Source of the DNA: Sphingopyxis sp. RIFCSPHIGHO2_12_FULL_65_19
Lineage (GTDB): Bacteria; Pseudomonadota; Alphaproteobacteria; Sphingomonadales; Sphingomonadaceae
Direction: 5' to 3'
Assembly (NCBI RefSeq): GCF_001830555.1
Contig: NZ_MIAM01000023.1
Location: forward strand, 56,143 to 97,008
Length of the DNA: 40,866 nucleotides
Part shown: piece after piece, positions 12,201 to 29,896 of the stretch
Layout of the letters: the number at the start of each line of letters is the position of its first letter
Numbering within the stretch: position 1 is the stretch's first letter
Translations under genes and position numbers: made by a program
Notes under the pieces: generated by a model
Databases searched by the model: none
What the model saw: the letters and a program-made list of their open reading frames with translations, nothing else
Told to the model about the DNA's origin: nothing

Positions 12201-12212
12201 GACACCGGTGTC
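12201..12212. promoter_or_regulatory. LacI-type operator, copy A (FAH-family gene and transporter)
   Basis: GACACCGGTGTC is a perfect 12-bp palindrome, with CTTTT-x-GACACCGGTGTC in the minus-strand orientation. The core ACCGGT and flanking TGACA are shared with four other sites in the window (16844, 16988, 24181, 29883). It ends 28 bases upstream of the start at 12173. Confidence 0.75.
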
Positions 12213-12299
12213 AAAAGCAAGCAAATATCGGACAGGCCCCGGCACGTTGCATGAGCCGCCCCGCCGGACGCGGCGCCGCAAACGGCGCGGATCGTCATC

Positions 12300-13916
12300 C
12301 TAGCCGAGCGCGCGAAAGCTGAAATTGCGGAAGCGCGCTTCGCCCTGCCCCGCCGAATAGAGTCCGGGGCGCAGCATCAGGAACCCGCCACGCACATTAT
12401 GGTGGTATCCCGACACCTCCATACCGCGGTCGAAACGCACCCAGGTCTTTCCGCCGTCGCCGCTGGTGTCATAAGTGACGATGTGGCGGTCGTTGGTGAC
12501 GCGCATCCGCAGACGCCCGCCATGCGGATTGACCGGCCGGGCGCGCTCGATCCCATATTGGTGCGTGACGAACCGCGCGCCATCGAAGCCGAGCCCGCAA
12601 TAGAGTTTCTCGTCGTAAAAGAGGATCAGCCCCGCAGTGCCGCCGGGCCCAACCTCGATATCGCATTCAAACCGATAGGCCTGGTCGCCCGCGATCAGCA
12701 GCAGCGGCGATGAATCGGCGGGCGCCTTGCCGCGGGCCGCCAGCACCAGCGCGCCATCCTCGACGCGCGCGCGGCGCTGTTCGTCGGGCGCTGGCTTGAA
12801 GAAATTCCATTTCGCGCCGAGCGCGAGTGTCGAGAAATCGTCCGACAGCGCCATGCCGTGCGGCCCCGCGAGCGCGCCGCCCTTCGGCTTCGCGATCGAC
12901 GCCGACAAGTCGCCCCCCGTCATGCGGAACCAGCCGTCGTCGGTCCATTCGATCGGATCGAGCAGCGCCTGGCGGCCCAAGGTCCAATAGCCATTTTCAT
13001 ATCCGTGATAGACGCTCCACCAGTCGCCCGCCGGGCCCTCGACCAGCGTCGCATGGCCGCGCGACCACCATTTTTCGGCGGCCGATCTGGTGCGGACAAG
13101 CGGATTGGCGGGACAATTTTCCCATGGTCCGTGGATCGACTTCGACCGCGCCGCGATCACCATATGCCCCGTCGGTGGCCCAGCGGTGCCGCCCACCGCC
13201 GTCACCATATAATAATAGTCGCCGTGGCGGATAATCTTCGGCCCCTCGGGCGCGAAGCCTTCGACGACCCAATCGGACGGATAGCGCCAGGGATCATAGA
13301 CATGTTCGGGCTCGCCGATGCGCTTGCACCCATCGTCGGACAGGCGGACACGGTCGCCGCCCGACAGGAACAGCCAGCGCGACCCGTCCTCGCCAACCGC
13401 ATGACCGGGGTCGATATGGTTCGGCAGGTTAAGGTCGATGGGTTCGCTCCACGGCCCCTCGATCCGGTCGGCCCAGATCACCCAGCTCGTGTTCGGGCCC
13501 TTGGTCGGGATGTAGAGATAATAGCGGCCCTGGTGCTTCACGAGTTCGGGCGCCCAGACCGACCCGATATTCTTGTGGAGCGCGGGCCCGATCGGGCGCC
13601 AGTTCACCAGATCGCGCGAATGCCAGATGACCAGCCCAGGATAGGAGTCAAAGGTCGAGAAGGTCATATAATAATCGGCGCCGTCCTTCAGGATCGACGG
13701 ATCGGGATGGTCGCCGGCCATGATCGGGTTGAGGAAACGCCCGTCACCAAGATCCGCCTTGCGCTGCCCGTCGAAACCCGTGGCCCATGTCGGCGTCGAG
13801 CCGGATGCTGCGGGTGCCGTCGCCGCCCATGCGGCCGCGGTTGTGCCAAGCCCCGACAGGCCGGTTGCCAACAGCCCGGTCCCGGCGAATTTGAGCATGT
13901 CGCGGCGATCGGTCAC
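12300..13916 (-). CDS. Glycoside hydrolase family 43 enzyme, Tat-exported
   Basis: This 538-residue protein has a twin-arginine signal (DRRDMLKFAGTGLLATG) and a five-bladed propeller catalytic domain. The GH43 residues are visible: base D72 in GDHPDPSIL, middle Asp D169 in NHIDPGHA, and acid E219 in WVVEGFAPEGP. A C-terminal beta-sandwich of about 190 residues starts near SDDFSTLALGAKWNFF and resembles the concanavalin-like domain attached to many GH43 xylosidases/arabinofuranosidases. It would release arabinose or xylose from side chains of pectin or xylan in the periplasm. It follows the first receptor gene, with a hairpin between them, so expression is probably tied to operator B. Exact subfamily cannot be read by eye. 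Confidence 0.9.
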   Translation of the reverse strand: MTDRRDMLKFAGTGLLATGLSGLGTTAAAWAATAPAASGSTPTWATGFDGQRKADLGDGRFLNPIMAGDHPDPSILKDGADYYMTFSTFDSYPGLVIWHSRDLVNWRPIGPALHKNIGSVWAPELVKHQGRYYLYIPTKGPNTSWVIWADRIEGPWSEPIDLNLPNHIDPGHAVGEDGSRWLFLSGGDRVRLSDDGCKRIGEPEHVYDPWRYPSDWVVEGFAPEGPKIIRHGDYYYMVTAVGGTAGPPTGHMVIAARSKSIHGPWENCPANPLVRTRSAAEKWWSRGHATLVEGPAGDWWSVYHGYENGYWTLGRQALLDPIEWTDDGWFRMTGGDLSASIAKPKGGALAGPHGMALSDDFSTLALGAKWNFFKPAPDEQRRARVEDGALVLAARGKAPADSSPLLLIAGDQAYRFECDIEVGPGGTAGLILFYDEKLYCGLGFDGARFVTHQYGIERARPVNPHGGRLRMRVTNDRHIVTYDTSGDGGKTWVRFDRGMEVSGYHHNVRGGFLMLRPGLYSAGQGEARFRNFSFRALG

Positions 13917-13930
13917 TTTGCTCTCCTTGG

Positions 13931-13971
13931 AAAAAGAAAGGCCCGGCTCCCTGAAATCGGAAACCGGGCCT
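13931..13971 (-). terminator. Intrinsic terminator or attenuator between the receptor and GH43 genes
   Basis: On the minus strand an 8-bp stem (AGGCCCGG at 13971-13964 pairing with CCGGGCCT at 13946-13939) encloses 17 bases and runs into TTTCTTTTT. It is placed 22 bases past the TonB-dependent receptor stop. It would cut transcription before the GH43 gene, at least partly. Confidence 0.7.
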
Positions 13972-13993
13972 CACCGGGACAAACCCGTTTGCG

Positions 13994-16798
13994 TCAGATC
14001 TTGACGCGCGCGCCGAACAGGAAGGTACGGCCGTAATGGTTGTTTTCGTAATTTCGGCCGGCAAAAATATCGTTGAAGCGATACCGATAATCGTCGGTCA
14101 AATTGGTGCCCTCGATCGACACTTCGATCTGTTCGGTCACCTGATAGCGGATCGAGGCATCGACGTTGAACGAGCTGCCATAGCCTTCAAAGATATTATT
14201 GTTGCCACTGGTGCTGTCATTATAGCCGCTGCGCCACGCCGCCGAGGAGCGGATCGAGAATTTGCCGTCGTCATAATAGACCGTCGCATTCCAAGCGCGC
14301 TTGGCGAGTCCGAGAAGCGGCTGGGTATAGGTGCCCGCGGGCTGCGATTCGAGGCGGTTATCGGCCGGATCATAAGCGAGCGGGCCGGCCACCGTATAGT
14401 CGACGTCGCTCTTCACGAAGGTCGCGTTGCCGAGGACGCCGAAATGGCGCAGCGAGTCCGAGAAGACCGAGAAAGGCAATTGCAGCGACAGTTCCACCCC
14501 CTTCAGATTTGCGCCGGGGCCGTTGCCCGTGGTGCGGAACTCGAACTGGCGATTGGGATCGTCGCCATCGACGACGGCAACATAGGCCGGCGTGCCGGGT
14601 GTCAGCAGCGACAGCGGCAAGCCGCTCGACGCATAGGTGCCCTGCAACGACGTCGAAATCGGGAAGCTTTCGATGTCCTTGGCGAACAGCGCGACCGACG
14701 CGATGGCACCCGGCGCGAAATACCATTCGGCCGCGAGGTCGAACGTCGTCGCACGATAGGGATCGAGGAACGGGTTGCCCGATGTGATGCGGAAGTTGAA
14801 CTGGTCGACAGTGCCGCCCGGCGACAGGCTGCCCAGCGTCGGCCGGGTGATCACTTTCGCGATCGCGCCGCGCAGGATCAGATTTTCGGTCGGGTGCAGG
14901 TTGACGTTGAACGACGGCAGCCAATCGTCATAGGTCCGGTCGACCGTGACGAAGGTCCCGCTGGCAAAGCCCGACGATGACTGATCGGTCTTGACGTAGC
15001 GCACCCCGGCGTTGCCCGTCAGGCGCATGCCGAGCACGTCGGTTTCAAACTCGGTCATGAACCAGCCGCCATAGGTTTTTTCGGTGACGGCGCGCTGCTG
15101 GCCCTGCTGGAGCACGGCGGGACGATTATACAGATCGATCAACGCCGTACCCGCGTCGAGATCGGGAACGATCCAGGCGTTGGTGTTGCCCGCGGGCTGC
15201 CCGGCATCGCCGAGGTTGAAGAGTTCGGCGATGTCCGATGTCACCGGCAGGCCGTTGGTGCCCGGCGCGCAGGTGAAGGCCGCGCAATAGGTGCTGTCGC
15301 GGCTGAACTGGACGGTATCAAAGTCGAATTGGCGATAGAAACCGCCGGCGAGCAGCTTGAACCGATCGGCAACCTGCCAGTCGAAATCGGCGGCGAAGGT
15401 CTTGAACTTGTTCGTCTGATACGACGGGCGATCGCGAAATTCCGCGAGTTGGAACGCCGTGGGATCTTCGATGCCGGGGCCGAAGCTGAGCACCGGATAT
15501 TTCATGTCGGTGTAGTCGAAACGATATCCGGTCGCATCGCGATCGTCGAAGGCGAGCGTCGTTTCAACCGGGATATCGGCCTGCGACTTGGAAAAGCCCG
15601 CGATCAGCTTCACCCCCAGCGCGTCGGTCAACCGCTGTTCGAGCCGGCCCGAAAGCTGGTAGAATTCGGTTTCGCTCTGGCGCGAATAGCGTTCGGTGCG
15701 GACATAGACATTGTCGAGGTCGGCGGCGATCAGATTATTGTTCGCGTCGATCGTGTAGTTCGACAGGTCGATCGAGCGTTCGTTGCTGCGCAGCAACACC
15801 TCGCCCCAATATTCGTCGCGCGTTTCCTTGAATTTGGAATAGAGACCGTCGATCGAAATCTTGGTATTTTCGCTCGGCTCGAACTGGATCGAGGCGGTGG
15901 CGCCGAGGCGCGAACGATCGTGGCTGACAAGGCCATAGCGCGGAATACGCGGATGGAAGGCTTCGGCGACCTCGACGCAGCCCGCCGACGGACTGGCGAC
16001 GAAGTTCGACCCCGCAAGACAGGTCACGCCATCGACGCTGCGGAACGGGGCCTGCGCCCAGCGCACGGTGTTGTTGCCCAGCTCATCGGTGCCATAGTCG
16101 GACCAGGCGACCGACGCCGACACCCCAAAGGTGCGATCGACATTGGTCCAGGCGATCAGCCCGGCGAGGCGCGGATCGACATCCTTGGTCAGGTCATTGT
16201 AGCGCGCCTGCGCCGATGCGACGAGCGTCAGCCCCTCCTTGCCACCGAGCGGATTGCCGGTGTTGAGATCGACGACCGCGCCGAGCGAGCCTTCATCGAG
16301 CGAAGCAGACGCCGTCTTGTGGACGACGAGCGAGGTGAAAAGCTCGGACGCAAAGACGTTGAAGTCGAAGGCGCGGTCGCGGTTCGCCGACGCGCCGTCG
16401 GTCGAGGTCGCGATCGTTTCCATGCCGTTGAGGCGGACGCGCGTGAACTGCGCACCCAGCCCGCGCACGGTGATCGCGCGGCCTTCGCCGGCGTCGCGCT
16501 GGATCGAGATGCCCGGAATACGCTGGAGCGATTCGGCAAGATTCTGGTCGGGGAATTTCGCGATATCTTCCGCGACGATGACGTCGACCGCCGAAATCGA
16601 GTCGCGTTTTTGGCCCAGCGCCTTGTCGAGCGATGCCCGAAAGCCGGTGACGACGATTTCGTCCTCGCTCGCGACCGGATCAGCCGAGTCCTGCACCGCA
16701 TCCTGCGCCCAGGCCGGCGACACCGCCAGCACGGCAAGCGAAGCGCCGCACGCCAGTCGGGTCAAAGTGCGAATGCTCCGCATTGCATGAATAGCCAT
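13994..16798 (-). CDS. TonB-dependent receptor 1 (oligosaccharide type)
   Basis: About 934 residues. A signal peptide (LTRLACGASLAVLAVSPAWAQ) is followed by a TonB-box-like segment DEIVVTGFRASLDKALGQKRD. The plug domain then reads AVDVIVAEDIAKFPDQNLAESL, IPGISIQRDAGEGRAITVRGLG and VRLNGMETIA. That plug is typical of the long Xanthomonas/Caulobacter-type receptors for plant polysaccharide fragments. The rest is the beta-barrel; it ends in GARVKI, with Ile rather than the usual aromatic residue. I chose ATG 16798 because GGAGG lies 6 bases ahead; the in-frame ATG at 16804 abuts the ribosome site. It is divergent from the pectate lyase gene and lies behind operator B. Confidence 0.92.
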   Translation of the reverse strand: MAIHAMRSIRTLTRLACGASLAVLAVSPAWAQDAVQDSADPVASEDEIVVTGFRASLDKALGQKRDSISAVDVIVAEDIAKFPDQNLAESLQRIPGISIQRDAGEGRAITVRGLGAQFTRVRLNGMETIATSTDGASANRDRAFDFNVFASELFTSLVVHKTASASLDEGSLGAVVDLNTGNPLGGKEGLTLVASAQARYNDLTKDVDPRLAGLIAWTNVDRTFGVSASVAWSDYGTDELGNNTVRWAQAPFRSVDGVTCLAGSNFVASPSAGCVEVAEAFHPRIPRYGLVSHDRSRLGATASIQFEPSENTKISIDGLYSKFKETRDEYWGEVLLRSNERSIDLSNYTIDANNNLIAADLDNVYVRTERYSRQSETEFYQLSGRLEQRLTDALGVKLIAGFSKSQADIPVETTLAFDDRDATGYRFDYTDMKYPVLSFGPGIEDPTAFQLAEFRDRPSYQTNKFKTFAADFDWQVADRFKLLAGGFYRQFDFDTVQFSRDSTYCAAFTCAPGTNGLPVTSDIAELFNLGDAGQPAGNTNAWIVPDLDAGTALIDLYNRPAVLQQGQQRAVTEKTYGGWFMTEFETDVLGMRLTGNAGVRYVKTDQSSSGFASGTFVTVDRTYDDWLPSFNVNLHPTENLILRGAIAKVITRPTLGSLSPGGTVDQFNFRITSGNPFLDPYRATTFDLAAEWYFAPGAIASVALFAKDIESFPISTSLQGTYASSGLPLSLLTPGTPAYVAVVDGDDPNRQFEFRTTGNGPGANLKGVELSLQLPFSVFSDSLRHFGVLGNATFVKSDVDYTVAGPLAYDPADNRLESQPAGTYTQPLLGLAKRAWNATVYYDDGKFSIRSSAAWRSGYNDSTSGNNNIFEGYGSSFNVDASIRYQVTEQIEVSIEGTNLTDDYRYRFNDIFAGRNYENNHYGRTFLFGARVKI

Positions 16799-16843
16799 TA
16801 TCATCCTCCCATATCGCCCCGTTGCCCCCGCTCGCGCAAGGAA

Positions 16844-16856
16844 TGACACCGGTTAC
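16844..16856. promoter_or_regulatory. LacI-type operator, copy B (receptor 1)
   Basis: TGACACCGGTTAC on the + strand (the minus strand reads GTAACCGGTGTCA). It ends 45 bases upstream of the receptor 1 start and has the same core as copies A, C, D and E. A weak look-alike, GGCTAACCGTTTCA, occurs at 16877-16890. Confidence 0.75.
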
Positions 16857-16987
16857 TTTGCTGAACAAAACGATTTGGCTAACCGTTTCATCCGTCGATT
16901 TTTCAGAGGTTGATGGCGGTCGCCGTCACATGCAGCGAACCGGATCAGACCCTCTCCCTTGGAAATATTTTCTCGTTGACCGATTGG

Positions 16988-17001
16988 GGTAACCGGTGTC
17001 A
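16988..17001. promoter_or_regulatory. LacI-type operator, copy C (pectate lyase operon)
   Basis: GGTAACCGGTGTCA, ending 56 bases before the pectate lyase start at 17058. A possible -35 (TTGACC at 16976-16981) lies just upstream, which would place the operator in the promoter spacer; the -10 is not clear. Confidence 0.75.
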
Positions 17002-17057
17002 GAAAGATTGCGGATTGCGACGAACATGTCAATACCCCAATGAACAGGAGAGATAGG

Positions 17058-18431
17058 ATGCCCAAAAAGCTTTGGATAACCGCGCTTTTTCTGGCCCTTA
17101 CCCTGCCATCGGATATGGCAATGGCGGCCGATACGACGCCGCTCGCCTTCCCCGGCGCGGTCGGTCCGGCGGCACAGACTCCGGGTGGCCGCGGCGGGCA
17201 GATCTTGCGCGTGACGACGCTTGCGCCCGACGGGCCGGGGTCGCTGAAGGCGGCGATCGACACGCCGGGGCCGCGCATCATTGTGTTCGAGGTCGGCGGC
17301 GTGATCGACATGGGGCGCCAGTCGATCGAGATCAAACATCCCTATCTCACCATCGCGGGGCAAACCGCGCCGGGTCCAGGCATCACCCTGATCCGGACGG
17401 GCATCGACGTGAAGACGCACGATGTCATCCTGCGCCACCTGCGCGTCTACACCGGCGTCGACGGCCAGCCGAAGCGCAGCGGGTGGGAGGCCGATACTTT
17501 TTCGACCGTGGCGGCGCATAATGTCATCATCGACCATTGCACTTTGATGTGGGGGATCGACGAGAATATGTCGGCGTCGGGGCCGCGCTTCACCGGCAAG
17601 AGCGTCGAGGAATGGCGCAAGGGCACGAGCCACAACATCACCTTTTCGAACAATCTTGCCGCCGAAGGACTCGCGGACGCAAGCCACCCCAAGGGCGAGC
17701 ACAGCAAGGGATCGCTGATCCACGACAATGCCACGGGCATCGTCTTTTACCGCAATGTCTGGGCGCATAATGTCGAGCGCAACCCGTTGATCAAGGGCGG
17801 CGGGCAGGCGCTGATGATCAACAATCTGATCTACAACCCGCAACACCGCGCGGTGCATTACAACCTGATGAACCTCGAATGGGTCGGGCACGACTATGTG
17901 ACGGGCCAGATCACCGCGGTCGGCAATGTGATGCGCGGCGGCAACGACACCGACAAGGACCTGCCATTCCTGATGCTGGGCGGCGACGGCGACCTCGCCT
18001 ATTATGGCAAGGACAATCTGCACGTCGATCGCCACGGCGCGGCGCTGCCCGAATTCGGCCGCTATGGCGAAACGCAGGCAAAGCTGATCAGCGCCAAGGC
18101 GCCGCTCGCGCCGCTGGGCGGTTATCATATCCTGCCGGTGCGCGATGTCGAAACATCGGTGCTGTCTACCGCGGGCGCACGCCCCTGGGCGCGCGATGCT
18201 GAGGAAATTCGCGTGCTCTTCTTCGTCGCCGAAGGGCGCGGCGACGTGATCGACGACGAGAAGGAAGTGAGCGGTTATCCCAAGGTCAAGGAAGTGCGCG
18301 CGCCCTTTGTCGACGCGGCGTGGGACCTCGCGACGATGGAACCGAAATCGGGGGTCTATCCGGGTCAGTCGACGCCCTTGCCGCAGGAAAATCTGTCGCA
18401 GCGCGACCGCGCATCACGGACGGGCAATTGA
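17058..18431 (+). CDS. Exported pectate lyase, PL1-like
   Basis: This 457-residue protein has a signal peptide (LWITALFLALTLPSDMAMAA). It has the parallel beta-helix lyase pattern: GGRGGQILRVTTL, GSLKAAIDTPGPRIIVFEVGG, YLTIAGQTAPGPGITL and the Ca-binding-site segment VIIDHCTLMWGIDENMS (about 156-172). The catalytic segment is RNPLIKGGGQALMINN (241-256); the family consensus is R-x-P-x-x-R-x-G-x-x-H, so the second Arg is Lys and the His is absent here. It would cleave homogalacturonan by beta-elimination in the periplasm or outside. The ATG at 17058 has AGGAG at good spacing. It leads an operon with a cupin and an esterase, behind operator C. Confidence 0.88.
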   Translation: MPKKLWITALFLALTLPSDMAMAADTTPLAFPGAVGPAAQTPGGRGGQILRVTTLAPDGPGSLKAAIDTPGPRIIVFEVGGVIDMGRQSIEIKHPYLTIAGQTAPGPGITLIRTGIDVKTHDVILRHLRVYTGVDGQPKRSGWEADTFSTVAAHNVIIDHCTLMWGIDENMSASGPRFTGKSVEEWRKGTSHNITFSNNLAAEGLADASHPKGEHSKGSLIHDNATGIVFYRNVWAHNVERNPLIKGGGQALMINNLIYNPQHRAVHYNLMNLEWVGHDYVTGQITAVGNVMRGGNDTDKDLPFLMLGGDGDLAYYGKDNLHVDRHGAALPEFGRYGETQAKLISAKAPLAPLGGYHILPVRDVETSVLSTAGARPWARDAEEIRVLFFVAEGRGDVIDDEKEVSGYPKVKEVRAPFVDAAWDLATMEPKSGVYPGQSTPLPQENLSQRDRASRTGN

Positions 18432-18433
18432 CG

Positions 18434-18835
18434 ATGAGCGCGCTCCTCGCGCTCCTTCTTGCCGGCAGCGGCGCCCCGGCGATGGTCGTGATCGACGAAG
18501 CCGCGACGGTGCGCGAAGAAGCGCCGCCGCATGGCGCCATCGGCCTGTCCACAGCCTGGCGGATCAGCGACGCCGCCCCCGCCCCGCGCAGCTTCGAGTT
18601 CCGCAAGCGCGCGCTGCATGTCGGCGCGGCGATCGGCGTGCATCCGATCGACCATGACGAAATTTATTATGTGCTGTCGGGCACCGGCGTCGTTCATTCG
18701 GATGGCGAGGAGAAAGCTTTGACGGCGGGCACTGCGGCATGGCTCTACAAGGGCGCCAAGGTGGGTATTCGCCAGACGGGACACGCGCCGCTGGTGCTGA
18801 TCATCGCATATCCGAACAAGGCGCCTGCGCCATGA
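18434..18835 (+). CDS. Exported cupin-domain protein (possible KdgF-like)
   Basis: This 133-residue protein has a short signal-like start (MSALLALLLAGSGAPA). A single cupin domain follows, with candidate metal ligands H-x3-H-x-E in GVHPIDHDEIYYVLSGTG and a later His in TGHAPLVLII. In pectin-using bacteria, KdgF cupins convert 4,5-unsaturated uronate to the linear keto form. That is a plausible role given the adjacent lyase, but the export signal would put it in the periplasm, and the second cupin motif is not canonical. The start at 18434 is three bases after the lyase stop, and its stop overlaps the next start (ATGA), so it is in the operon. A sugar-binding or storage-type cupin remains possible. 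Confidence 0.75.
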   Translation: MSALLALLLAGSGAPAMVVIDEAATVREEAPPHGAIGLSTAWRISDAAPAPRSFEFRKRALHVGAAIGVHPIDHDEIYYVLSGTGVVHSDGEEKALTAGTAAWLYKGAKVGIRQTGHAPLVLIIAYPNKAPAP

Positions 18836-19803
18836 CGCTCGATCGCCGCGCGCTGCTGGCGGCCAGCCTTGCGCTGCCCTTTGCGAGCACGGCGGCGCAG
18901 GCCGCATGGACCCGCCCTGCGGGCCTTGCCCCCGACGCAAGCATCGCGCTGTGGCCCGAAGGCCATATCAAGCCGCCGCCGGGGCTTTCCGAACAAGTCG
19001 TGCAGCGCAGCGACGATCCGGACGCCAGCGACCGGATGCTGCAAGCGATCACCCGGCCGCGGCTGGACATCTTCCGCCCGGCGAAGCCTAATGGCGCGGC
19101 GGTGATCCTCGCGCCCGGTGGCGGCTATCGTTACGTGGTGATCGACAAGGAAGGTTATGAGCTGGCGCGCTGGCTGAAGGAGCGCGGCGTGACCGTTTAT
19201 GTGCTCTTCTACCGCTTGCCCGGCGACGGCTGGGCGCATGGCGCCGATGTGCCGCTGGCCGATGCGCAGCGGGTGGTGCGACTGGTGCGCAGCCGCGCGC
19301 CTGTCGATGGTATTGACCCCGCGCGCGTCGTCTTTGGCGGCTTTTCGGCAGGCGGTCAGGTCGCCACGAGCCTGCTCACGCGCTTCGATGTCCGGGTTTA
19401 CGACCGGGTCGATGCTGCCGACGCCGTGTCGGCGCGGCCTGACGCGCTCGCCGCTATCTATCCCGTCGTGTCGATGGACCCGGCGATCAGCCATGCGGTG
19501 AGCCGCGAAAAACTGATCGGCGCGAATGCCGACGCGTCGCGCGAGGAACGCTATTCGCCCGAACGCAACGTCCGCGCCGACCAGCCGCCGCTGTGGCTGC
19601 TCCACGCCGAGGATGATCAGGTGGTGAAGGTAGAAAACAGCGTCCGGCTGCGCGCCGCGACGCGCACCATGGGCGCCCCGGTCGAAGCGCATTTCTTCGA
19701 GCGCGGCGGGCATGGTTTCGGGCTGATGAAGACCGCGGGGCTGCCCGTTGCGATCTGGCCCGAGCTGCTGTGGAACTGGCTGGGGTCGCACGGGATCGTA
19801 TGA
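18832..19803 (+). CDS. Exported alpha/beta-hydrolase, probable acetylesterase
   Basis: 323 residues with a twin-arginine-like signal (DRRALLAASLALPFASTAAQA). The catalytic triad can be read: S172 in GGFSAGGQ, D262 in HAEDDQVV, H294 in RGGHGFG. The oxyanion loop is APGGGYRY. This arrangement matches the esterase/lipase family that includes xylan and pectin acetylesterases. In this operon it would strip acetyl groups from oligouronides before lyase action; the substrate is inferred. The start overlaps the cupin stop (ATGA). A hairpin (19816-19831) lies after the gene, between it and a convergent carboxylesterase gene. Confidence 0.85.
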   Translation: MTLDRRALLAASLALPFASTAAQAAWTRPAGLAPDASIALWPEGHIKPPPGLSEQVVQRSDDPDASDRMLQAITRPRLDIFRPAKPNGAAVILAPGGGYRYVVIDKEGYELARWLKERGVTVYVLFYRLPGDGWAHGADVPLADAQRVVRLVRSRAPVDGIDPARVVFGGFSAGGQVATSLLTRFDVRVYDRVDAADAVSARPDALAAIYPVVSMDPAISHAVSREKLIGANADASREERYSPERNVRADQPPLWLLHAEDDQVVKVENSVRLRAATRTMGAPVEAHFFERGGHGFGLMKTAGLPVAIWPELLWNWLGSHGIV

Positions 19804-19815
19804 CCGCCCCCTCAT

Positions 19816-19831
19816 CCCGGCAAAGGCCGGG
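19816..19831. repeat. Short intergenic hairpin between convergent genes
   Basis: CCCGGC-AAAG-GCCGGG is a perfect 6-bp stem in the 54-base gap between the two convergent esterase genes. There is no T-run on either side, so it is at best a weak terminator. It looks like the core of a dispersed palindrome. Confidence 0.5.
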
Positions 19832-22396: not shown

Positions 22397-22407
22397 CTCA
22401 CTCCCCG

Positions 22408-22434
22408 CTCACCCTACCCGCACGGGAGGGCGAG
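22408..22434. repeat. Small bulged hairpin between kdgK and kduD
   Basis: CTC-A-CCCT-AC-CCG pairs with CGG-G-AGGG-C-GAG around a two-base loop. It fills most of the 45-base intergenic gap and lies just upstream of the kdgK ribosome site. It looks like a short dispersed palindrome, not a terminator. Confidence 0.45.
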
Positions 22435-22441
22435 TTTCTTG

Positions 22442-23188
22442 TTATCGCGCGAGCCAGCCGCCGTCGACCGCGAGGATATGGCCCTGCACATAGTCCGATG
22501 CCGAGGACGCAAGGAATATGGCGGCCCCGCCGATATCCTTGGGATCGCCCCAGCGGCCCGCCGGGATGCGCTCCATGATCTGACGGTTGCGCGTCTCGTC
22601 GCCCTGTAGCGCGGCGGTGTTGTTCGTCGCGATATAGCCGGGCGCGATCGCATTGACCTGCACGCCTTTTGCCGCCCATTCGTTGGCGAGCAGCTTGGTG
22701 AGTCCGCCCACGCCCGATTTCGACGCGGTATAGCTCGGCACCCGGATGCCGCCCTGAAAGGTCAGCATCGAGGCGATGTTGATGATCTTGCCGCTGCCCC
22801 GCGCGATCATGTGGCGCCCCACGCTCTGGCAGAGGAAGAAGAGCGTCTTCAAATTGGTGTCCATCACCGCGTCCCAGTCGGCCTCGGTGAAGTCGACCGC
22901 ATCGGCGCGGCGGATGATCCCGGCATTGTTGACGAGAATGTCGATGCGTCCGAACTCGGCGAGCACCGCGTCGACGAGCGGCTGGACCGCACCGACGCTC
23001 GACAGGTCGGCGGCGAAATTCTCGGCCCGGCGGCCGAGCCCGCGCACCTTGCCGACGGTCTCATCGGCGGGCGAGCGCCCCGCGGCAGCGATATCGGCCC
23101 CCGCTTCGGCGAGCGCGAGCGCGATCCCCTGTCCGATGCCGGTGTTCGCGCCGGTGACCAGCGCGACTTTTCCTGTGAGATCGAACAT
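22442..23188 (-). CDS. kduD: 2-dehydro-3-deoxy-D-gluconate 5-dehydrogenase
   Basis: This 248-residue short-chain dehydrogenase reduces 3-deoxy-D-glycero-2,5-hexodiulosonate to KDG with NAD(P)H. It shows TGANTGIGQG (cofactor loop), NNAG, a Ser in INIASML and the YTASK catalytic pair (Y153, K157). Length and neighbours (kduI upstream, kdgK downstream) make KduD the best call within a large superfamily. The ATG at 23188 has AGGAAG 6 bases ahead, preferred over the ATG at 23194, which abuts it. It is separated from kduI by a palindromic repeat (23203-23280) but remains on the same strand. Confidence 0.9.
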   Translation of the reverse strand: MFDLTGKVALVTGANTGIGQGIALALAEAGADIAAAGRSPADETVGKVRGLGRRAENFAADLSSVGAVQPLVDAVLAEFGRIDILVNNAGIIRRADAVDFTEADWDAVMDTNLKTLFFLCQSVGRHMIARGSGKIINIASMLTFQGGIRVPSYTASKSGVGGLTKLLANEWAAKGVQVNAIAPGYIATNNTAALQGDETRNRQIMERIPAGRWGDPKDIGGAAIFLASSASDYVQGHILAVDGGWLAR

Positions 23189-23202
23189 CGTCATCTTCCT
23201 AC

Positions 23203-23280
23203 CCTTCGTCCTGCCGGACTCGATCCGGCATCCATTTCCGCCATGTCGCCTGGACCCCGGACCAAGTCCGGGGTGACGAT
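23203..23280. repeat. Palindromic intergenic repeat, copy 2
   Basis: It begins CCTTCGTCCTGCCGGACT and ends GGACCAAGTCCGGGGTGACG. It closely resembles the copy at 35926-36003 and the shortened copy at 3053-3109. It occupies the gap between kduI and kduD. Confidence 0.85.
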
Positions 23281-23287
23281 AAGAGGA

Positions 23288-24130
23288 TTACGACAACTGG
23301 CAGATGTCGAGGACGTTCATGTCGGTATAGTCCTGATTCTCGCCCGCCATCGCCCAGATGAAGGCATAGGATTTGGTGCCGGCGCCCATGTGGATCGACC
23401 AGGGCGGGCTGATCACCGCTTCCTCATTCTGCATGACGATGTGGCGGGTCGCTTCGCCTTCGCCCATGAAGTGCATGACGCGGTCGGTATCGACATTGTC
23501 GAGCTCGAAATAGAAATAAATCTCGCTGCGACGCTCATGGATATGCGGGGGCATGGTGTTCCACACGCTGCCTTCCTTGAGCACGGTCAGCCCCATGACG
23601 AGCTGCGCGCTGTCGCAGACGCCGGGGATAGCGAGCTGGAAAATCGTGCGCTCGTTCGATTCGGCAAGGCTGCCACGGTCGAGCGCATTGGCGTCGGCAA
23701 TGCCGAGCTTGCGCGTCGTGAACGCCTTGTGCGCCGGACAAGAGGCCAGATAATAACGCGCGCCTTCGCCCGCGAACTCGACGTCGGCCGCCCCCATCGT
23801 GACATAGAGGCAATCCTTGTTGCCGAGCGTGAAGCTTTCGCCGTCGACGGTGACGGTGCCTTCCACCGCCGAAACATTGACGATCGCAAGTTCGCGGCGT
23901 TCGAGGAACGGATGCCCCACAGCCGAGGGCGGCTCGCTCTGCGCGGGCAGCTTGACCGGCGCCGAACCGACGGCGACCCCGCCGATCACGAAGCGGTCGG
24001 CGTGGGTGTAGTTGAGGACGCACTCGCCCGTCCGGAACAGATTCTGGATCAGATAGCGGTCGCGCAATTCCGCGTTCGACACCTGATCCATCATCACGGG
24101 ATGGGTGGCGTAATAGGTCTTGGAAAACAT
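23288..24130 (-). CDS. kduI: 5-keto-4-deoxyuronate isomerase
   Basis: This 280-residue cupin-fold isomerase converts 5-keto-4-deoxyuronate, formed from unsaturated uronates, to 3-deoxy-D-glycero-2,5-hexodiulosonate. The zinc site is visible as H196 and H198 in PPHIHER, E203 in RRSEIYFYF and H247 in WSIHMGAG, in the same order as in the E. coli enzyme. The start and length agree with the family ([16 protein letters not shown]). A GAGG lies about 8 bases upstream of the ATG. It is the first gene of the minus-strand kdu operon, 50 bases downstream of operator D, whose TGACA half overlaps a possible -35 TTGACA. Confidence 0.95.
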
Positions 24131-24180
24131 GGGGGCATCCTCGCTCGATATTTCTGGCTTGCCGCCTTGCTAGATTTGAT

Positions 24181-24194
24181 GGTAACCGGTGTCA
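24181..24194. promoter_or_regulatory. LacI-type operator, copy D (kduI and the LacI gene)
   Basis: GGTAACCGGTGTCA on the + strand. On the minus strand the site reads TTGACACCGGTTACC, so its TTGACA could be the -35 of the kduI promoter, with a weak -10 (TAGCAA) 17 bases on. It lies between divergent kduI and the regulator gene, so autoregulation is also possible. Confidence 0.78.
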
Positions 24195-24300
24195 AGAGGC
24201 GATGACGCCCCCGCCGGACAGTTGATTTTACGCTTTCGAGCGCCCATCAGACAGAAAAGGCGAGCTCGGCTCCGGCCGGACTTGCAGGGGAAAGAAGAAT

Positions 24301-25356
24301 ATGGCGGCACAAAGCAAGGGGCCGGGGGGCAAGCAGCCGACGATCAACGACGTAGCGGCGCTCGCGGGCGTTTCAAAAAAAACCGTCAGCCGGGTGATCA
24401 ACCGATCCGAATTTCTGACCGACAAGACCCGCGCCGCGGTCGAACAGGCAATCGAAAGGCTGGGGTTCGTTCCCAATCCGCAGGCACGGGCGCTGGCTTT
24501 TCGCCGCAACTTCCTGATCGCGCTGCTTCACGACAATCCGAACGCGCAGACCGTGCTCAATTTCCAGCGTGGGGTGCTCGACGCGATCAAGGACAGCGAC
24601 CTGGCCCTGCTCGTCCGTCCGGTCGATCGCGGGTCCGACAAGCTGCTCGACGATGTACGCACCTTTCTTGAAAAACAGCGCCCGATCGGCGCGATGCTGC
24701 TCCCCCCGATTTCGGAGAATGACGACCTTGCCGCGCTCTGCGAGGATCTCGGCGTGCGCTATGTACGCATCGGGTCGGCGCCGCTCGACGATGCCAAACA
24801 TTGCATCTCGTCGAACGACCGCGAAGTCGTCGCCGACGCGGTGCGGGGGCTGGTTGCGCTCGGTCATCGCCGCATCGGTTTCGTGCGCGGCCCCGTCGGC
24901 TTTCGTTCGGCGGCCGAACGCGAGAAGGGTTTTCTCGAGGCGCTGGCCGAGGCGGGGATCGACCTTCCCGCCGAATTGAACGCACCCGGCAATTATCGCT
25001 ACACGGCGGGAATCGAAGCCGGCGAAGACCTGCTTTCGCTGGCCGCCCCGCCGACCGCGATCTTCTGCTCGAACGACGAAATGGCGGCAGGCGTGATGAG
25101 CGTCGCGCACAGCAAGGGCATCGGCGTGCCGGGCGAGCTGTCGATCATCGGTTTCGATGACAGTCCGACCGCGACGCATATCTGGCCGGCCCTCAGCACC
25201 GTCCGTTGGCCGATCCGCGAAATGGGCGTTCGCGCCGCGCAGACGCTCGTCCCCGATTTCCTCGGTCCCGGCGCCAAGGGCGGCGAGGATGAAGGTACGG
25301 TCCTCGCCTCGACCTTTATCGAGCGCCAGTCGGTCGCGCCGCCACCCGCGCGCTGA
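24301..25356 (+). CDS. LacI-family transcriptional regulator of the uronate locus
   Basis: 351 residues. The N-terminal helix-turn-helix reads TINDVAALAGVSKKTVSRVINRSEFLTDKTRAAVEQAI (about residues 14-51), followed by the hinge GFVPNPQARALA. The periplasmic-binding-like effector domain contains FCSNDEMAAGVM and IIGFDDSPTATHIWPALSTV, typical of the family. It sits between kduI and a secreted beta-helix gene and is the only LacI regulator in the window, so it is the natural binder of the five ACCGGT-core operators. The effector is probably a KDG-type intermediate, by analogy with uronate regulators. It ends 3 bases before a convergent gene. Confidence 0.93.
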   Translation: MAAQSKGPGGKQPTINDVAALAGVSKKTVSRVINRSEFLTDKTRAAVEQAIERLGFVPNPQARALAFRRNFLIALLHDNPNAQTVLNFQRGVLDAIKDSDLALLVRPVDRGSDKLLDDVRTFLEKQRPIGAMLLPPISENDDLAALCEDLGVRYVRIGSAPLDDAKHCISSNDREVVADAVRGLVALGHRRIGFVRGPVGFRSAAEREKGFLEALAEAGIDLPAELNAPGNYRYTAGIEAGEDLLSLAAPPTAIFCSNDEMAAGVMSVAHSKGIGVPGELSIIGFDDSPTATHIWPALSTVRWPIREMGVRAAQTLVPDFLGPGAKGGEDEGTVLASTFIERQSVAPPPAR

Positions 25357-25359
25357 CCC

Positions 25360-27039
25360 TCAACGCCGCCGACGGGCGAGCTGATAGTCGTAGAGCGAGG
25401 GCGCGGCATCGATCGCTTGCCCCGTCGCCTCGATATAGGGCGCGGGGGTATAATCGACCCGGATCTTGCGATTGGCATGGAGCCCGACGATCCGCTCGCC
25501 CGGCCCTTCCAGCCCGCTCGTGATCGCGACGACGGCATCGTCGGGAATGCTCTCGGGCATCACCAGCCGCGCGTTCCACAATGTGTTGTAAAGCCCATGC
25601 CCCGGCTTCCAGTATGGCGCGCCGCCGCCGACCCAGAGCTGGTAGTGCCAGCCGTCCGTCCCCCGTTTCGGGTCGATATGCATTTCGATCTGGTCGAACA
25701 AATTCTGGTGGTTCGATCCGCTGTGCTGGTCGATGATCGCATCCCGGTCGACGACCGCGCGCTGGAAGACCGAACGCGTCGAGCGCGTGTTGATGCTGAC
25801 CGGGTGGATGACCGGATTTTCGACCTTCAGATCCTTTACCAGAACATTATGCACTGCGCCGACATGGACCGAATAGTGCGCGCGCCGCGTGCCCGTCGTG
25901 GTGATGTCGGCGATCGTCAGGCTCGCCGCATTGTCGGTCAGGATGCCGCTGTCCGAACTGTCGATCGTCAGCTTCCGCACCCAGCCATCGAACACGCCGG
26001 TCATGTAGATGCCATTATAGCCCTGTTCGAGATGATGGCCGAAGGATGGCGCATCGGGAAATTGCAGCCGCAGATTCTGGATGCCCACATTGGCAAGATG
26101 GGTCCAGTCGGCGACCACCGCGGGCTGGTCGGCGCGGATGTCATGGAGCAGCGGATCGCCGAGCGTCACCGTCCGCCCGCGCACCGCCGCGACCCGCGTC
26201 GCCTGCACGACGACCGGACGGTTGGGAGAGGTCCAGTGATGCGATCCGATCGGCAGGTCGGTGTCGCCGTAAAGCGATTTCAATATCTGGCTTTTCGGCC
26301 CATCGACCGAAAACCATTGCAGCTGTACGACGTCACCGACCCGAAGCTTTGCCGCATCGTCAACCGTCAACGTGCGCGAGAATTGCCTGCCCGCGACGCC
26401 ATTTGCGAGCACCGGATCGCGGACGTCCTTGCTGCCGTCATAGGAAACCGGTCGGCTGTTTTCGGGCGCGACGAGGATCATCCCGCCGGCCCAGCTATAT
26501 TCTGTGAACAGATAGTCGATATTATGTTCGGGTTCGACCTGCTGCTTCTTTTCGCGCACCAGATATTCGCGCAGCTCGTCATAATCGCTGCTCTGGTCGA
26601 TCAGCTTCAGCGGGCGCGGGAACCAGAGCTCGCTGCCGCCAGGGCCATTGCCTGCGCCGTCGAGGGTGATGTCGCTGCGCGTGATTCGCAGCACTTCGGT
26701 GATCTGCGTCCGCCCCTTGGGAAAACGCAGCGTCACCTTACCCTGCACGGCATTGGCGGCAGCCAGCGCGCGGAGCACCGCCTTCGTATCGTCGAGCCCG
26801 TCGTCGGGAATCGCACCATAGGCTGTGACGTCGATCGTCGTAGCCGCGTCGGTGGGGAGCGTCGCAAGGCCGAAGCCATAGCCGGCATAGCTGAAATCGG
26901 GCAGCGGGTGCGCCTTCATCGTCGCCCGATCGGCAAGGATTTTGGGCAGGTCCGTCGGCTGCGCCTGCGACGGGAAACTCAGCGCCGCACCGAACGCCAG
27001 AACCGAAACGAGGCGCGCACGCCGATTACCCGAAATCAT
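25360..27039 (-). CDS. Exported right-handed beta-helix protein, candidate polysaccharide-active enzyme
   Basis: 559 residues with a signal peptide (ARLVSVLAFGAALSFPSQAQ). After about 45 residues it shows the N-terminal pattern of pectate-lyase-superfamily beta-helices: IDVTAYGAIPDDGLDDTKAV, then VTLRFPKGRTQITEVLRI and DITLDGAG. Later repeats (VGIQNLRLQF, VRKLTIDSSDSGILTDNAASLTIADI, VLVKDLKVENPVIHPVS) form further coils. I see neither the GH28 aspartates nor the R-x-P-x-x-R lyase motif. Conserved-looking HSGSNHQN and HYQLWVGGG may be in an active cleft. It follows receptor 2, behind operator E. I chose ATG 27039 for the signal peptide. Its activity is unknown; a lyase or hydrolase on pectin-type glycans is inferred. 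Confidence 0.8.
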   Translation of the reverse strand: MISGNRRARLVSVLAFGAALSFPSQAQPTDLPKILADRATMKAHPLPDFSYAGYGFGLATLPTDAATTIDVTAYGAIPDDGLDDTKAVLRALAAANAVQGKVTLRFPKGRTQITEVLRITRSDITLDGAGNGPGGSELWFPRPLKLIDQSSDYDELREYLVREKKQQVEPEHNIDYLFTEYSWAGGMILVAPENSRPVSYDGSKDVRDPVLANGVAGRQFSRTLTVDDAAKLRVGDVVQLQWFSVDGPKSQILKSLYGDTDLPIGSHHWTSPNRPVVVQATRVAAVRGRTVTLGDPLLHDIRADQPAVVADWTHLANVGIQNLRLQFPDAPSFGHHLEQGYNGIYMTGVFDGWVRKLTIDSSDSGILTDNAASLTIADITTTGTRRAHYSVHVGAVHNVLVKDLKVENPVIHPVSINTRSTRSVFQRAVVDRDAIIDQHSGSNHQNLFDQIEMHIDPKRGTDGWHYQLWVGGGAPYWKPGHGLYNTLWNARLVMPESIPDDAVVAITSGLEGPGERIVGLHANRKIRVDYTPAPYIEATGQAIDAAPSLYDYQLARRRR

Positions 27040-27067
27040 GAACCGATAACTCCCTGCGGTCCCATTT

Positions 27068-27114
27068 GGCATGGCGGCGCGTGACCCGTGAAAGGCCGAA
27101 GGCGCCGCCATGCC
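27068..27114 (-). repeat. Long perfect hairpin between receptor 2 and the beta-helix gene
   Basis: GGCATGGCGGCGC (27068-27080) is the exact reverse complement of 27102-27114, with a 21-base loop. No T-run follows on the minus strand, so it is more likely a processing or stabilising hairpin than a terminator. It lies 13 bases past the receptor stop. Confidence 0.7.
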
Positions 27115-27127
27115 GGGGACCTGTCAA

Positions 27128-29752
27128 TCAAAACTTCGCGCGGACGCCGACCGAGAAGCGCCGTTCGGACAAGGCGTAGCTGTTGAGCGCCGTCGGGTTG
27201 AAATTGCTATACTCGCTCGTCGCCGATTTTTTCGGCAGCAGATTCTGCGCCTGGAGCGACAGCGCGATATTCTTCGTGATGTCGACCCCGACCTGCGCGT
27301 CGAGTTGCGAACGCGAGCCAACAAAACTGGGACGCCCCTGCGAAAATTCAAACACCGCCTCGTCGCGGTAATTATAGGCGATGCGCGCCGAAAATGGTCC
27401 TTTCTCGTAAAGACCGACCAGATTGTAACTGTTCTTCGACACCGCAACGAGCGGAAAGCCTGCATTATCCTCGGCGTCCGAATAGGTGTAGTTCGCGATG
27501 ACGCCAAAGCCGTCGAGCGGCGAGGGCAGGAAGTCCATGAACTGCTGGATGCCGATCTCGAACCCCTTGATCTTTGCGCTGGCAAGATTTTCGGGGCGCG
27601 AGAAGGTCAGTTCGCGGCCCTGCGGATCGAGCGTCGTGTCGATACCACTGGTGACGAAACTCGCGATGAAGTTCTTGACATCCTTGTAAAAGAGCGCGCC
27701 CGAAATCAGCGAGCTTTTTCCCGTATAATATTCAAAGCTGACATCGGCCTGCGTTGCGATCGGCGGTTCGAGATTCACGTTGCCGCCGGTGACCGACAGG
27801 TTCGTTGCGTTGAAGAAGGTCGAGGGCGCGAGGTCGGCGATCGACGCGCGTTGCATCGTCTGCGAGGCCGATACGCGAATCAGGAAATCGTCACTGACGT
27901 TGAACGCGATATTCGCGCTGGGCAGGATGTTGGTATAGCGGTTCTTGTCGTTGCGCAGCGTGCTGATCGCGCCGACATTGACATAGGAGTCGACCGAAAG
28001 GCGCGTCGATGCGATTCGTACGCCCGCATTGGCCTTGTACGGGACGCCCGCAATTTCCCCCTCGCCCGATACCATCAGATAAGCCGCGAGCGTCTTTTCG
28101 CTGAAGTCATAGTCGCGCTGGAGGTTGGGCAGCAGAGTCGAGCGGCCGTTCGGATCGGGGTTCGGCTGAGCCCCCTGCGCGCGGTCGAAGACATAATCGA
28201 AGGTCGGCGCGGTGCTTAAAAAGCTGCGCGGAAAAGTGCCGGGCAGGTCGGACAGGAAATCGCCCGCATCGACAAGCTTCAGATAGGGCTCAATCTCTTC
28301 GCGGGTCGGGGTGACCTGGCTGCGAAAGGCGTTCGAGCGCGCGTGGAGATCGGTGTAGCGCACGCCCGCTGCGATCGTCACCCCACCGGCGGTCTCGTAA
28401 CTGACGTCGAGCTTGCCCGTCCATTCTTCGAGCAGGCCGAGCAGCCGGTTGCTGCGCACGCCGTTGTTCGCGGGGTTGTAGGAGGCGTAATCGGTCGGAT
28501 CGAACGTCCCGCCCAGCGTCAGCGACGGAACCGTCTGGTCGCGAAAGTCGAACGCGCCGGGGACCGTCGCGGTGCCTTGCAGCGTGATGATCTGGATCGT
28601 CTGGTCGATCGTGCCCTTGCTGTAATAACCGTCGGCCTCGATCGTCAGCCCATTGTCGCCCTCATATTTGCCGTTCAGGCCATAAAGGAAGCTTTCGGTC
28701 GGTTCGTTGCGGATCTGCCCGGCGGTGGTGACGGTGCCGTTGGCGTTGCCTGCGACGACCATCCCGTCCTCGACGACGCGGCCGGTCACGGGATTGCTGC
28801 CCGTCGGAAGACGGAACGCAAAGAAATCCTGCCGCCGGCCGGTCTTGAGCTTTGAATAAAGCGCGTCGGCGGTGATCGTGAATTCGGGCGTCACCTCGAA
28901 CTGGATCGATCCGTTGAGGCCGAGGCGCGAGCGGTCGACGGTGAACTGCTCATATTGCAGCAGCACCGGGGTCTGGAAAGACCCACCGCCGGTGCCGGTG
29001 TAAGTGCGATTCAGGAAATTGTTGCGCTCGAACGTCTGCGTCATCGAGGTGCGCTTTTGATATTCGCCCGCGATCATGACGCCGATACGCCCGTCGGCGA
29101 ATTTGGTCGTTGCAAAGCCCGTGATCGCGGGCTCGAACTTTTTCGAGTTTTCGGAATAGACGCCCTGCGCGCGGACCGAGATCGTCGGCTCCTTGAAGCT
29201 CAGCGGCTTGGGCGTGACAAGATTGACGGTGCCACCGAGCCCGCCCTCGGCATTGCTCGCGAGCGGGGACTTGCGCACTTCGAGGCGGCCAAACAGGCTG
29301 GACGGAACCAAGTCGAGCCCCGACGAGCGGCCGAGCTGGTCGTTCTCGGGCGGCGACAGCCGCGCCGACCAGCCGAGCAAGGTGCGACCATCGACTTCGA
29401 CGCGCACTTGTTGCAGCCCGCGCACCGATACCGACTGGCCTTCACCGAAGACGCGGGTGATCTGGACCCCGGTAACGCGTTGCAGCGCTTCAGCGACGTT
29501 GGCGTCGGGCAGTTTGCCGACGTCCTCGGCGGTGATGACGTCCATCACCTGTTCGGCGTCGCGCTTGATCTCGGCCGCCTGTTCGAGCGAGGCGCGGATC
29601 CCGGTGACGACGATCGCGTCTTCTTCCGTCGGGGCCGATCCATCCTGAGCATGGGCCGGCACCATCGCCAGCGCCGCGAGCGATGCCCCGCCGGCCAGCC
29701 TTGCCCCCAGGCCCGTCAATCTCCGAAAGTCCCGGTTTACATGAATCGCCAT
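27128..29752 (-). CDS. TonB-dependent receptor 2 (oligosaccharide type)
   Basis: About 874 residues. A signal peptide (LAGGASLAALAMVPAHAQ) and TonB-box-like DAIVVTGIRASLEQAAEIKRD are followed by a plug domain. The plug reads MDVITAEDVGKLPDANVAEAL, VTGVQITRVFGEGQSVSVRGL and GGLGGTVNLVTPKPL. The barrel ends in GVRAKF with the usual terminal Phe. It is the same long receptor class as receptor 1 but clearly diverged. ATG 29752 has GGAGG 6 bases ahead; the ATG at 29758 abuts it, exactly the layout seen in receptor 1. It is behind operator E and a tandem TTGTATGACAACT repeat, and upstream of the beta-helix gene. Confidence 0.92.
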   Translation of the reverse strand: MAIHVNRDFRRLTGLGARLAGGASLAALAMVPAHAQDGSAPTEEDAIVVTGIRASLEQAAEIKRDAEQVMDVITAEDVGKLPDANVAEALQRVTGVQITRVFGEGQSVSVRGLQQVRVEVDGRTLLGWSARLSPPENDQLGRSSGLDLVPSSLFGRLEVRKSPLASNAEGGLGGTVNLVTPKPLSFKEPTISVRAQGVYSENSKKFEPAITGFATTKFADGRIGVMIAGEYQKRTSMTQTFERNNFLNRTYTGTGGGSFQTPVLLQYEQFTVDRSRLGLNGSIQFEVTPEFTITADALYSKLKTGRRQDFFAFRLPTGSNPVTGRVVEDGMVVAGNANGTVTTAGQIRNEPTESFLYGLNGKYEGDNGLTIEADGYYSKGTIDQTIQIITLQGTATVPGAFDFRDQTVPSLTLGGTFDPTDYASYNPANNGVRSNRLLGLLEEWTGKLDVSYETAGGVTIAAGVRYTDLHARSNAFRSQVTPTREEIEPYLKLVDAGDFLSDLPGTFPRSFLSTAPTFDYVFDRAQGAQPNPDPNGRSTLLPNLQRDYDFSEKTLAAYLMVSGEGEIAGVPYKANAGVRIASTRLSVDSYVNVGAISTLRNDKNRYTNILPSANIAFNVSDDFLIRVSASQTMQRASIADLAPSTFFNATNLSVTGGNVNLEPPIATQADVSFEYYTGKSSLISGALFYKDVKNFIASFVTSGIDTTLDPQGRELTFSRPENLASAKIKGFEIGIQQFMDFLPSPLDGFGVIANYTYSDAEDNAGFPLVAVSKNSYNLVGLYEKGPFSARIAYNYRDEAVFEFSQGRPSFVGSRSQLDAQVGVDITKNIALSLQAQNLLPKKSATSEYSNFNPTALNSYALSERRFSVGVRAKF

Positions 29753-29882
29753 CTTCATCCTCCCACGCCGACGGCGGACCTTTTGCCCGCTCGCCCATGA
29801 TTCCCCTCGAAGATGCTCCGGCAACCCAGCCTTTCGGCGCGCCCGGTGCCTCTCTTCGTCTTCGCTATCGTTGCCCGGCAAA

Positions 29883-29896
29883 GGTAACCGGTGTCA
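29883..29896. promoter_or_regulatory. LacI-type operator, copy E (receptor 2 operon)
   Basis: GGTAACCGGTGTCA, identical to copies C and D over 14 bases. It is 130 bases upstream of the receptor 2 start, further than the other copies, so the leader is longer or the promoter is further away. Confidence 0.75.

Follow-up and report, generated by a model that had tools for sequence, protein, structure and literature searches.

In Dickeya and Erwinia, one repressor, KdgR, joins the pectate lyases to kdu/kdg catabolism and takes 2-keto-3-deoxygluconate (KDG) as its inducer; it is an IclR-family protein, and its operator is unrelated to the one considered here. We analyzed a 40,866-nucleotide stretch (hereafter the window) of the genome of Sphingopyxis sp. 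RIFCSPHIGHO2_12_FULL_65_19 (3,874,067 bases in 73 contigs), which corresponds to C23:56143-97008 and contains a uronate locus with five short, near-identical sites built on an ACCGGT core. The LacI-family protein encoded at 24301 very probably uses these sites as its operators; it would act as a repressor of unsaturated-uronate catabolism and be a functional counterpart of KdgR. In the accessible part of Ravcheev et al. (2014, PMC4052901), ExuR, KdgR, UxaR and UxuR are named for glucuronate/galacturonate in other lineages, less than 1% of sites lie in coding regions, autoregulation is reported for 72% of LacI-type transcription factors, and the words 'sphingomonadales' and 'pectin' have 0 occurrences in the main text. 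Among the matches listed in the open literature, several of them only partially, none is recognizable as a description of this operator.

Putative operators precede the uronate transcription units

All five sites were found where the earlier note had placed them: three exact copies of TGACACCGGTTACC, one match of 13/14 and a palindrome at 12201 (Table 1). At up to three mismatches, TGACACCGGTTACC has eight matches in the window where 1.41 are expected, and no shuffle out of 100 reaches eight. Genome-wide, all three exact copies and the sole one-mismatch copy fall inside the window, with two-mismatch matches at 12 further places; many unrelated copies, which the earlier note had named beforehand as the result that would count against a regulon, are not seen, and the exact motif occurs nowhere outside the window. 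The relaxed palindrome DGWMACCGGTKWCH, allowed no mismatch, occurs in eight places in the genome, namely the five window sites and C2:1197, C23:133994 and C54:13153. All five window sites are intergenic, and gaps make up 8.3% of the interval 12174-30091, which gives a chance of ~4e-6 for five out of five. The sites share a G at nucleotide position NT-6 in both halves and a central CG, and their halves differ in a conserved way (TGACACC versus GGTAACC, with AC versus TA at NT-5/4). At C2:1197 the sequence is TGTAACCGGTTTCA, ~120 bases upstream of a GH3 gene.

A search of genome contigs with the LacI protein confirmed 171 loci, of which the best 80 were retained as named loci; the nearest among these are Sphingopyxis. 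Orthologs of 15 window proteins were sought in the 80 named loci, and an operator was scored within 300 bases upstream. It precedes the first genes of the units, FAH in 55/57 cases, receptor 1 in 42/45, pectate lyase in 41/43, KduI in 26/40 and receptor 2 in 14/18, and none of the internal genes: KduD (0/64), KDG kinase (0/55), EstA (0/40), MFS (0/36), carboxylesterase (0/30), beta-helix (0/17) and GH43 (0/14). The earlier claim that the sites stand ahead of transcription units is borne out by this division, which persists under a strict one-mismatch rule (152/203 first genes, 0/256 internal genes); FAH then drops to 31/57 because its palindromic form is three mismatches off. Sixty scrambled motifs that kept the central CG gave no match before first genes and at most one before internal genes. 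In many loci, receptor 1 and pectate lyase are transcribed divergently and have partly common upstream stretches, which makes their two counts interdependent.

The divergent neighbor of lacI varies among Sphingopyxis loci: it is kduI in some, as here, and FAH in others. FAH keeps TGACACCGGTGTCT in 19/20 Sphingopyxis-like FAH genes, both at a distance of 12 kb from lacI and directly beside it, and pectate lyase keeps TGACACCGGTTACC in 27 of 28 Sphingopyxis-like genes. The sites travel with their genes in rearranged loci, which points to operators that belong to particular genes, not to some feature of a single gap. For lacI itself, 71/80 loci have an operator in the 300 bases before the gene, yet it is positioned for the divergent neighbor. 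HlyD of the neighboring efflux operon has a site in 14/22 cases, but it is divergent from receptor 2, and HlyD has no site in L024 and L060, where receptor 2 was not found. Between receptor 2 and this RND efflux operon, at 30000-30030, lies TTGTCGTAATTTGTCGC, with a similar sequence in L053 and L054; it is perhaps an operator of the efflux operon. The divergent receptor 1 and pectate lyase operators are spaced by 133-138 bases in five of 28 Sphingopyxis-like pairs and by 143-146 in the other 23, about one helical turn apart; a fixed helical phase between them was considered and dropped, as other genera show other spacings.

Across 298 genomes of the family, the exact motif is present in 83 and its backward-read control in four. 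LacI orthologs were divided from paralogs by score (at least 359.7 bits versus at most 314). Motif and ortholog occur together in 77 genomes, the motif only in six, the ortholog only in eight and neither in 207 (Fisher p 3e-54, which common descent of the genomes reduces to an indication). In G052, one of the six motif-only genomes, the LacI match is partial and covers residues 11-234.

The candidate regulator and the promoters

The protein encoded at 24301 matches the N-terminal LacI helix-turn-helix (HTH) family (PF00356, 64.6 bits) and an effector domain (PF13377, 119.9 bits), both above cut-off; it is a LacI-family protein, not an IclR-family one. The genome has seven LacI-type genes, with recognition pairs KK (24301), VA, IK, IR, LQ, QS and QP. 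KK is unique among the seven, and KKTVSR is identical in 80/80 orthologs (75 parsed by pattern and five via printed lines showing SKKTVSRV). In the LacI family, as described in the accessible part of Camas et al. (PMC2978694), amino-acid positions AA-15/16 are tied to NT-5/4, a G at NT-6 goes with Arg at AA-20, and a central CG with the hinge Leu; by these contacts, the Arg at AA-20 and the hinge Leu of the 24301 protein agree with the G at NT-6 and the central CG of the operator. A palindrome scan around the LacI paralogs, with L148 and L149 outside the scan, returned no clear operator. The paralog at C54:12924 (pair VA, TASR) has TGTAACCGGTTACC upstream of its HTH at C54:13153, with a variant at C54:15724; this is a sister operator, likewise built on the ACCGGT core.

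Promoters were read as consensus-like hexamers in alignments of Sphingopyxis-like ortholog promoters. By this reading, the kduI promoter is TTGACA-N17-TAGCAA, its -35 and spacer being covered by the operator; the FAH operator lies between a conserved GCTTGC and a TTA; the pectate lyase promoter has a TTGACC, with the operator in the spacer; and the receptor 2 promoter is TTGACA-N18-CATCAT, followed by the operator. Such placement at these four genes fits steric repression. The asymmetry of the operator halves is possibly due to overlap with promoter hexamers (the kduI operator contains TTGACA).

The predicted target set of the sites includes the pectate lyase gene, kduI, kduD and the KDG kinase-like gene, of which the lyase and kinase are named by sub-cut-off resemblance. 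The FAH reading frame is open from 12173; a program-made list of open reading frames had placed it in the wrong frame. We know of no obvious step for the FAH-family protein in the kdu pathway; by its operator counts it ranks with the most constant regulon members, and it may be an unassigned uronate enzyme. Further right, beyond the efflux operon, a Y-family polymerase-like gene lies at 36604-38316 (Pfam IMS, IMS_C and a weak DUF6504 match).

Table 1 Sites and genes of the uronate locus (window coordinates)
Feature	Position	Strand	Remark
Putative LacI operator TGACACCGGTGTCT	12200..12213	-	27 bases upstream of FAH start (12173); contains palindrome GACACCGGTGTC at 12201-12212
Putative LacI operator TGACACCGGTTACT	16844..16857	+	One mismatch to TGACACCGGTTACC (13/14), ends in ACT; upstream of receptor 1
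Putative LacI operator TGACACCGGTTACC, exact	16988..17001	-	Upstream of pectate lyase gene
Putative LacI operator TGACACCGGTTACC, exact	24181..24194	-	kduI/lacI gap; overlaps TTGACA hexamer of kduI
Putative LacI operator TGACACCGGTTACC, exact	29883..29896	-	Directly downstream of putative -10 of receptor 2
Sixth, degenerate operator-like site AGACACCGCTTACC	12090..12103	-	Two mismatches; FAH codons 24-28; 110 bp from promoter operator
GntR/FadR-type box TTGTATGACAA, proximal	29937..29947	+	
GntR/FadR-type box TTGTATGACAA, distal	29957..29967	+	
LacI-family regulator	24301..25356	+	351 aa; recognition pair Lys-Lys
FAH-superfamily protein, 2-keto-4-pentenoate hydratase-like	11382..12173	-	Resemblance below NCBIfam cut-offs
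MFS transporter	10053..11360	-	Second gene of FAH unit
TonB-dependent receptor 1	13994..16801	-	
GH43	12300..13916	-	Second gene of receptor 1 unit
Pectate lyase, PelZ-like	17058..18431	+	Below cut-off
Pectin acetylesterase-like protein, PaeX-like	18739..19803	+	Below cut-off; same unit as pectate lyase
KduI	23288..24130	-	First gene of kdu unit; over NCBIfam cut-off
KduD	22442..23194	-	kdu unit; over NCBIfam cut-off
PfkB-family kinase, KDG kinase-like	21383..22396	-	kdu unit; below NCBIfam cut-offs
Carboxylesterase-family protein	19858..21420	-	Last gene of kdu unit
TonB-dependent receptor 2	27128..29752	-	
Beta-helix protein	25360..27111	-	Same operon as receptor 2

A conserved operator-like site within the FAH gene

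The earlier note had the sites lying only in gaps, which is correct for its five and omits the operator-like sequence AGACACCGCTTACC inside the FAH coding sequence. Among 20 Sphingopyxis-like FAH loci, AGACACCGCTTACC is exact in 18 and one base different in L058 and L059, and its distance to the promoter operator is 110 bp in 17, 111 in two and 112 in one. L058 (Sphingopyxis sp. PET50) also shows FAH, KduI, carboxylesterase and beta-helix matches each split in two, and a LacI match that begins at residue 23; these are frameshifts or sequencing errors.

The codons that carry the site are constrained beyond the residues that they encode. In 18 near-complete FAH genes, 78 columns hold a residue that never varies and that four or more codons can encode; just seven of these are codon-invariant, and four of the seven are the consecutive codons 25-28 (ACA CCG CTT ACC). 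Two of these codons are rare in a set of 13 window genes, ACA making up 4.9% of Thr codons and CTT 9.5% of Leu codons. Plain protein conservation as the origin of the coding site was set aside after this codon-constraint test. The site stands at base 71 in 20 of the 58 FAH genes examined, and those from outside the Sphingopyxis-like group lack it; the first ~450 bases of the KduI, LacI, pectate lyase and receptor genes contain no like intragenic site at one conserved position. It is best explained as a putative auxiliary operator, and it gives an example of how a regulatory element can be found through frozen rare codons.

A second uronan locus and a probable GntR layer at receptor 2

A second uronan locus (L141), at C23:126000-141000 and placed 34-43 kb to the right of the window, encodes a GntR/FCD regulator, the D-mannonate dehydratase ManD, a DUF4861 protein, GH88, a third TonB receptor and a PF05426 lyase. 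ManD is over cut-off, as are the GntR HTH (PF00392) and FCD (PF07729) domains of the regulator, and the best solved matches of the lyase are 3nfv and 8bdq (alginate lyase family). Candidate operators with the ACCGGT core lie here as well: between ManD and GH88 the relaxed palindrome recurs at C23:133994, and ~50 bases before receptor 3 a close variant of it stands at C23:135416. One or more ACCGGT-core sites of this form are present in all 30 fetched GH88 loci of the genus, two of them in 18 loci; in the same test, the other 63 palindromic cores reach a mean of 0.98 of 30 loci and a maximum of 20 (CAGCTG).

In a comparison of 80 genomes of the genus, 35 have GH88. All 35 have the LacI ortholog, and none of the 16 genomes without LacI has GH88. 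The beta-helix gene of the receptor 2 operon occurs in exactly the same 35 genomes, at 5.9-10.5 kb from GH88 in nine, at ~51-57 kb in 20 and on a different contig in six. Because the two genome sets are identical, receptor 2 and the beta-helix protein belong with the second uronan system; kinship within the genus makes these statistics weaker but leaves the two sets identical. That the receptor 2 operon and the GH88/lyase locus are inherited together shows which genes make one uptake system. The second system probably serves a glucuronate-type uronan, and the LacI regulon probably reaches this locus outside the window.

The receptor 2 promoter bears a further element. The only two exact copies of TTGTATGACAA in the genome lie upstream of it, 20 bp apart. 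By number alone, two window matches at up to two mismatches are not above chance (70/100 shuffles), and the weight of the boxes comes from conservation. Among the Sphingopyxis-like receptor 2 promoter sites, a box stands 53-54 bases away from the LacI site in 12/14, and L035 has none. The composite of LacI site and box is found in 28/80 genus genomes, all within the 35 GH88 genomes, and its backward control in 0; like boxes precede GH88 and receptor 3. The consensus of FadR-subfamily GntR proteins, as given in the accessible part of PMC4494728, consists of TKGT/ACMA boxes with 3 nt between GT and AC, and the TTGTATGACAA-type boxes fit it; unlike the FadR-subfamily case, they adjoin a LacI operator. 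The GntR gene (C23:131079-131783) is present in all 35 GH88 genomes and two more, and this co-occurrence in the same genomes suggests that the boxes probably belong to the GntR/FCD regulator of the second locus. They end directly upstream of the receptor 2 -35, so activation is possible.

These results qualify the earlier assignment of all sites to the regulator at 24301. Co-inheritance, the unique KK pair and the placement at unit heads make this protein the best candidate; the assignment is incomplete with respect to the intragenic site, the second locus and the second operator class at receptor 2, and because of that second class one LacI protein is not the whole control.

Discussion

We propose that, without inducer, a dimer of the 24301 protein would occupy each operator, over the -35 or spacer at kduI, FAH and pectate lyase and past the -10 at receptor 2, and would block RNA polymerase. 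Once pectin products are imported, an early intermediate would release the protein; this may be KDG, which has about an even chance, or the keto-uronate directly before it. Its release would switch on all of the receptor, lyase, esterase, FAH/MFS and kdu genes at once. The FAH unit would have a second, weaker operator 110 bp away, in codons 24-28, that adds to repression as a loop or roadblock. At the receptor 2, GH88 and receptor 3 promoters, the same operator class would be combined with boxes for the GntR/FCD protein of the second locus.

Several observations weigh against this proposal. The site in the lacI gap is ~107-125 bp from lacI and placed for the divergent neighbor, so it need not signify autoregulation of lacI. 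Outside Sphingopyxis-like loci, a site precedes KduI in 8/22 cases and receptor 2 in 1/5; in some of these loci, L078 and L100 among them, kduI lies ~1.5 kb beyond the site and perhaps sits behind another gene. Six motif-only and eight LacI-only genomes exist among the 298. The second-locus sites deviate from the window consensus, with TGTCACC or TGATACC halves. No promoter could be assigned for receptor 1 in the ortholog alignment. Lys at AA-16 is not peculiar to the 24301 protein, the C14:96900 paralog having it too. Finally, the C-terminal tetramerization repeat of LacI type was not found in the tail of the 24301 protein, whose effector domain ends at residue 345 of 351; a simple loop is therefore disfavored.

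A chance origin of the repeats, or a family-wide dispersed repeat devoid of regulatory meaning, would agree with the excess of ACACCGGT over its backward form in the genome (39 versus 10 places), but was rejected on the shuffle, genome-wide and scrambled-motif counts; with the exact 14-mer only in the window, the gap-only placement and the co-inheritance with LacI, we regard it as scarcely conceivable. Binding of some or all sites by another LacI paralog, alone or in competition, is easier to imagine in a genome with seven LacI-type genes, and C14:96900 (Ile-Lys), which shares the Lys at AA-16, and C54:12924, whose TGTAACCGGTTACC has the ACCGGT core, would be the candidates. Against this, orthologs of the LacI gene at 24301 go together with the motif over 298 genomes, and its KK pair is invariant in orthologs and unique in this genome, which makes a paralog quite improbable.

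Two further alternatives concern parts of the regulon, and each seems to us rather unlikely but of clearly greater standing. At receptor 2 and the second locus, the GntR/FCD protein could be the real regulator and the ACCGGT sites minor, leaving the pectin and kdu part as the LacI regulon proper. The spacing between TTGTATGACAA box and LacI site kept at receptor 2 promoters, the composite in 28 genomes and the GntR gene in every GH88 genome would suit this arrangement; the LacI site, however, is exact at receptor 2, including the composite-matching promoters of the nine genomes whose operon is near GH88, and every one of the 30 GH88 loci keeps an ACCGGT site. Likewise, the constraint on FAH codons 25-28 could serve RNA structure, translation or another protein, given that the site mismatches the operator at NT-2 (GCT for GGT) and is not found in FAH outside the Sphingopyxis-like group. 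Yet both of its halves match operator halves (AGACACC as at the FAH promoter site, and GGTAAGC versus GGTAACC), the L059 version, TGACACCGCTTACC, is closer to the consensus, and the distance to the promoter operator stays within 110-112 in 20/20 loci.

Repression by the 24301 protein at the five sites is thus the reading that we prefer. A broader one, which we offer tentatively and hold to be possible rather than probable, is that one LacI-type sensor of a common uronate intermediate licenses two systems, a pectin system under LacI only and a glucuronate-type uronan system under LacI plus GntR/FadR boxes upstream of the -35 and fit for activation, and that the FAH operator pair 110 bp apart, held by rare invariant codons, forms a repression loop without a LacI tetramer tail. 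For the use of pectin and uronans by Sphingomonadales, the analysis provides a putative regulator, a putative operator and a list of candidate targets.

The FAH pair is like the operator pair of the gal operon bound by GalR, in which two operators lie ~11 helical turns apart and one is inside the first gene; the pair here is a prediction from sequence, for which looping, an accessory protein or a tetramer interface would be conjecture. As in the Xanthomonas CUT loci with SuxR (PMC1790865), a TonB receptor, an inner-membrane transporter, an enzyme and a LacI-type regulator stand in one locus; SuxR differs in serving sucrose, not uronates, and the accessible part of that source has no operator of the present sequence. 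As in the local sugar regulons of LacI-family proteins described in the accessible part of PMC4052901, the operator is an even palindrome with a central CG, sites precede catabolic and transport units, and the regulator gene is in the locus; unlike in those regulons, the operator halves here are conservedly unequal and one candidate site is intragenic. Overall, the predicted system is of an ordinary kind, a LacI regulon for uronates, to which a putative operator inside a gene, a second locus and a probable GntR layer are additions.

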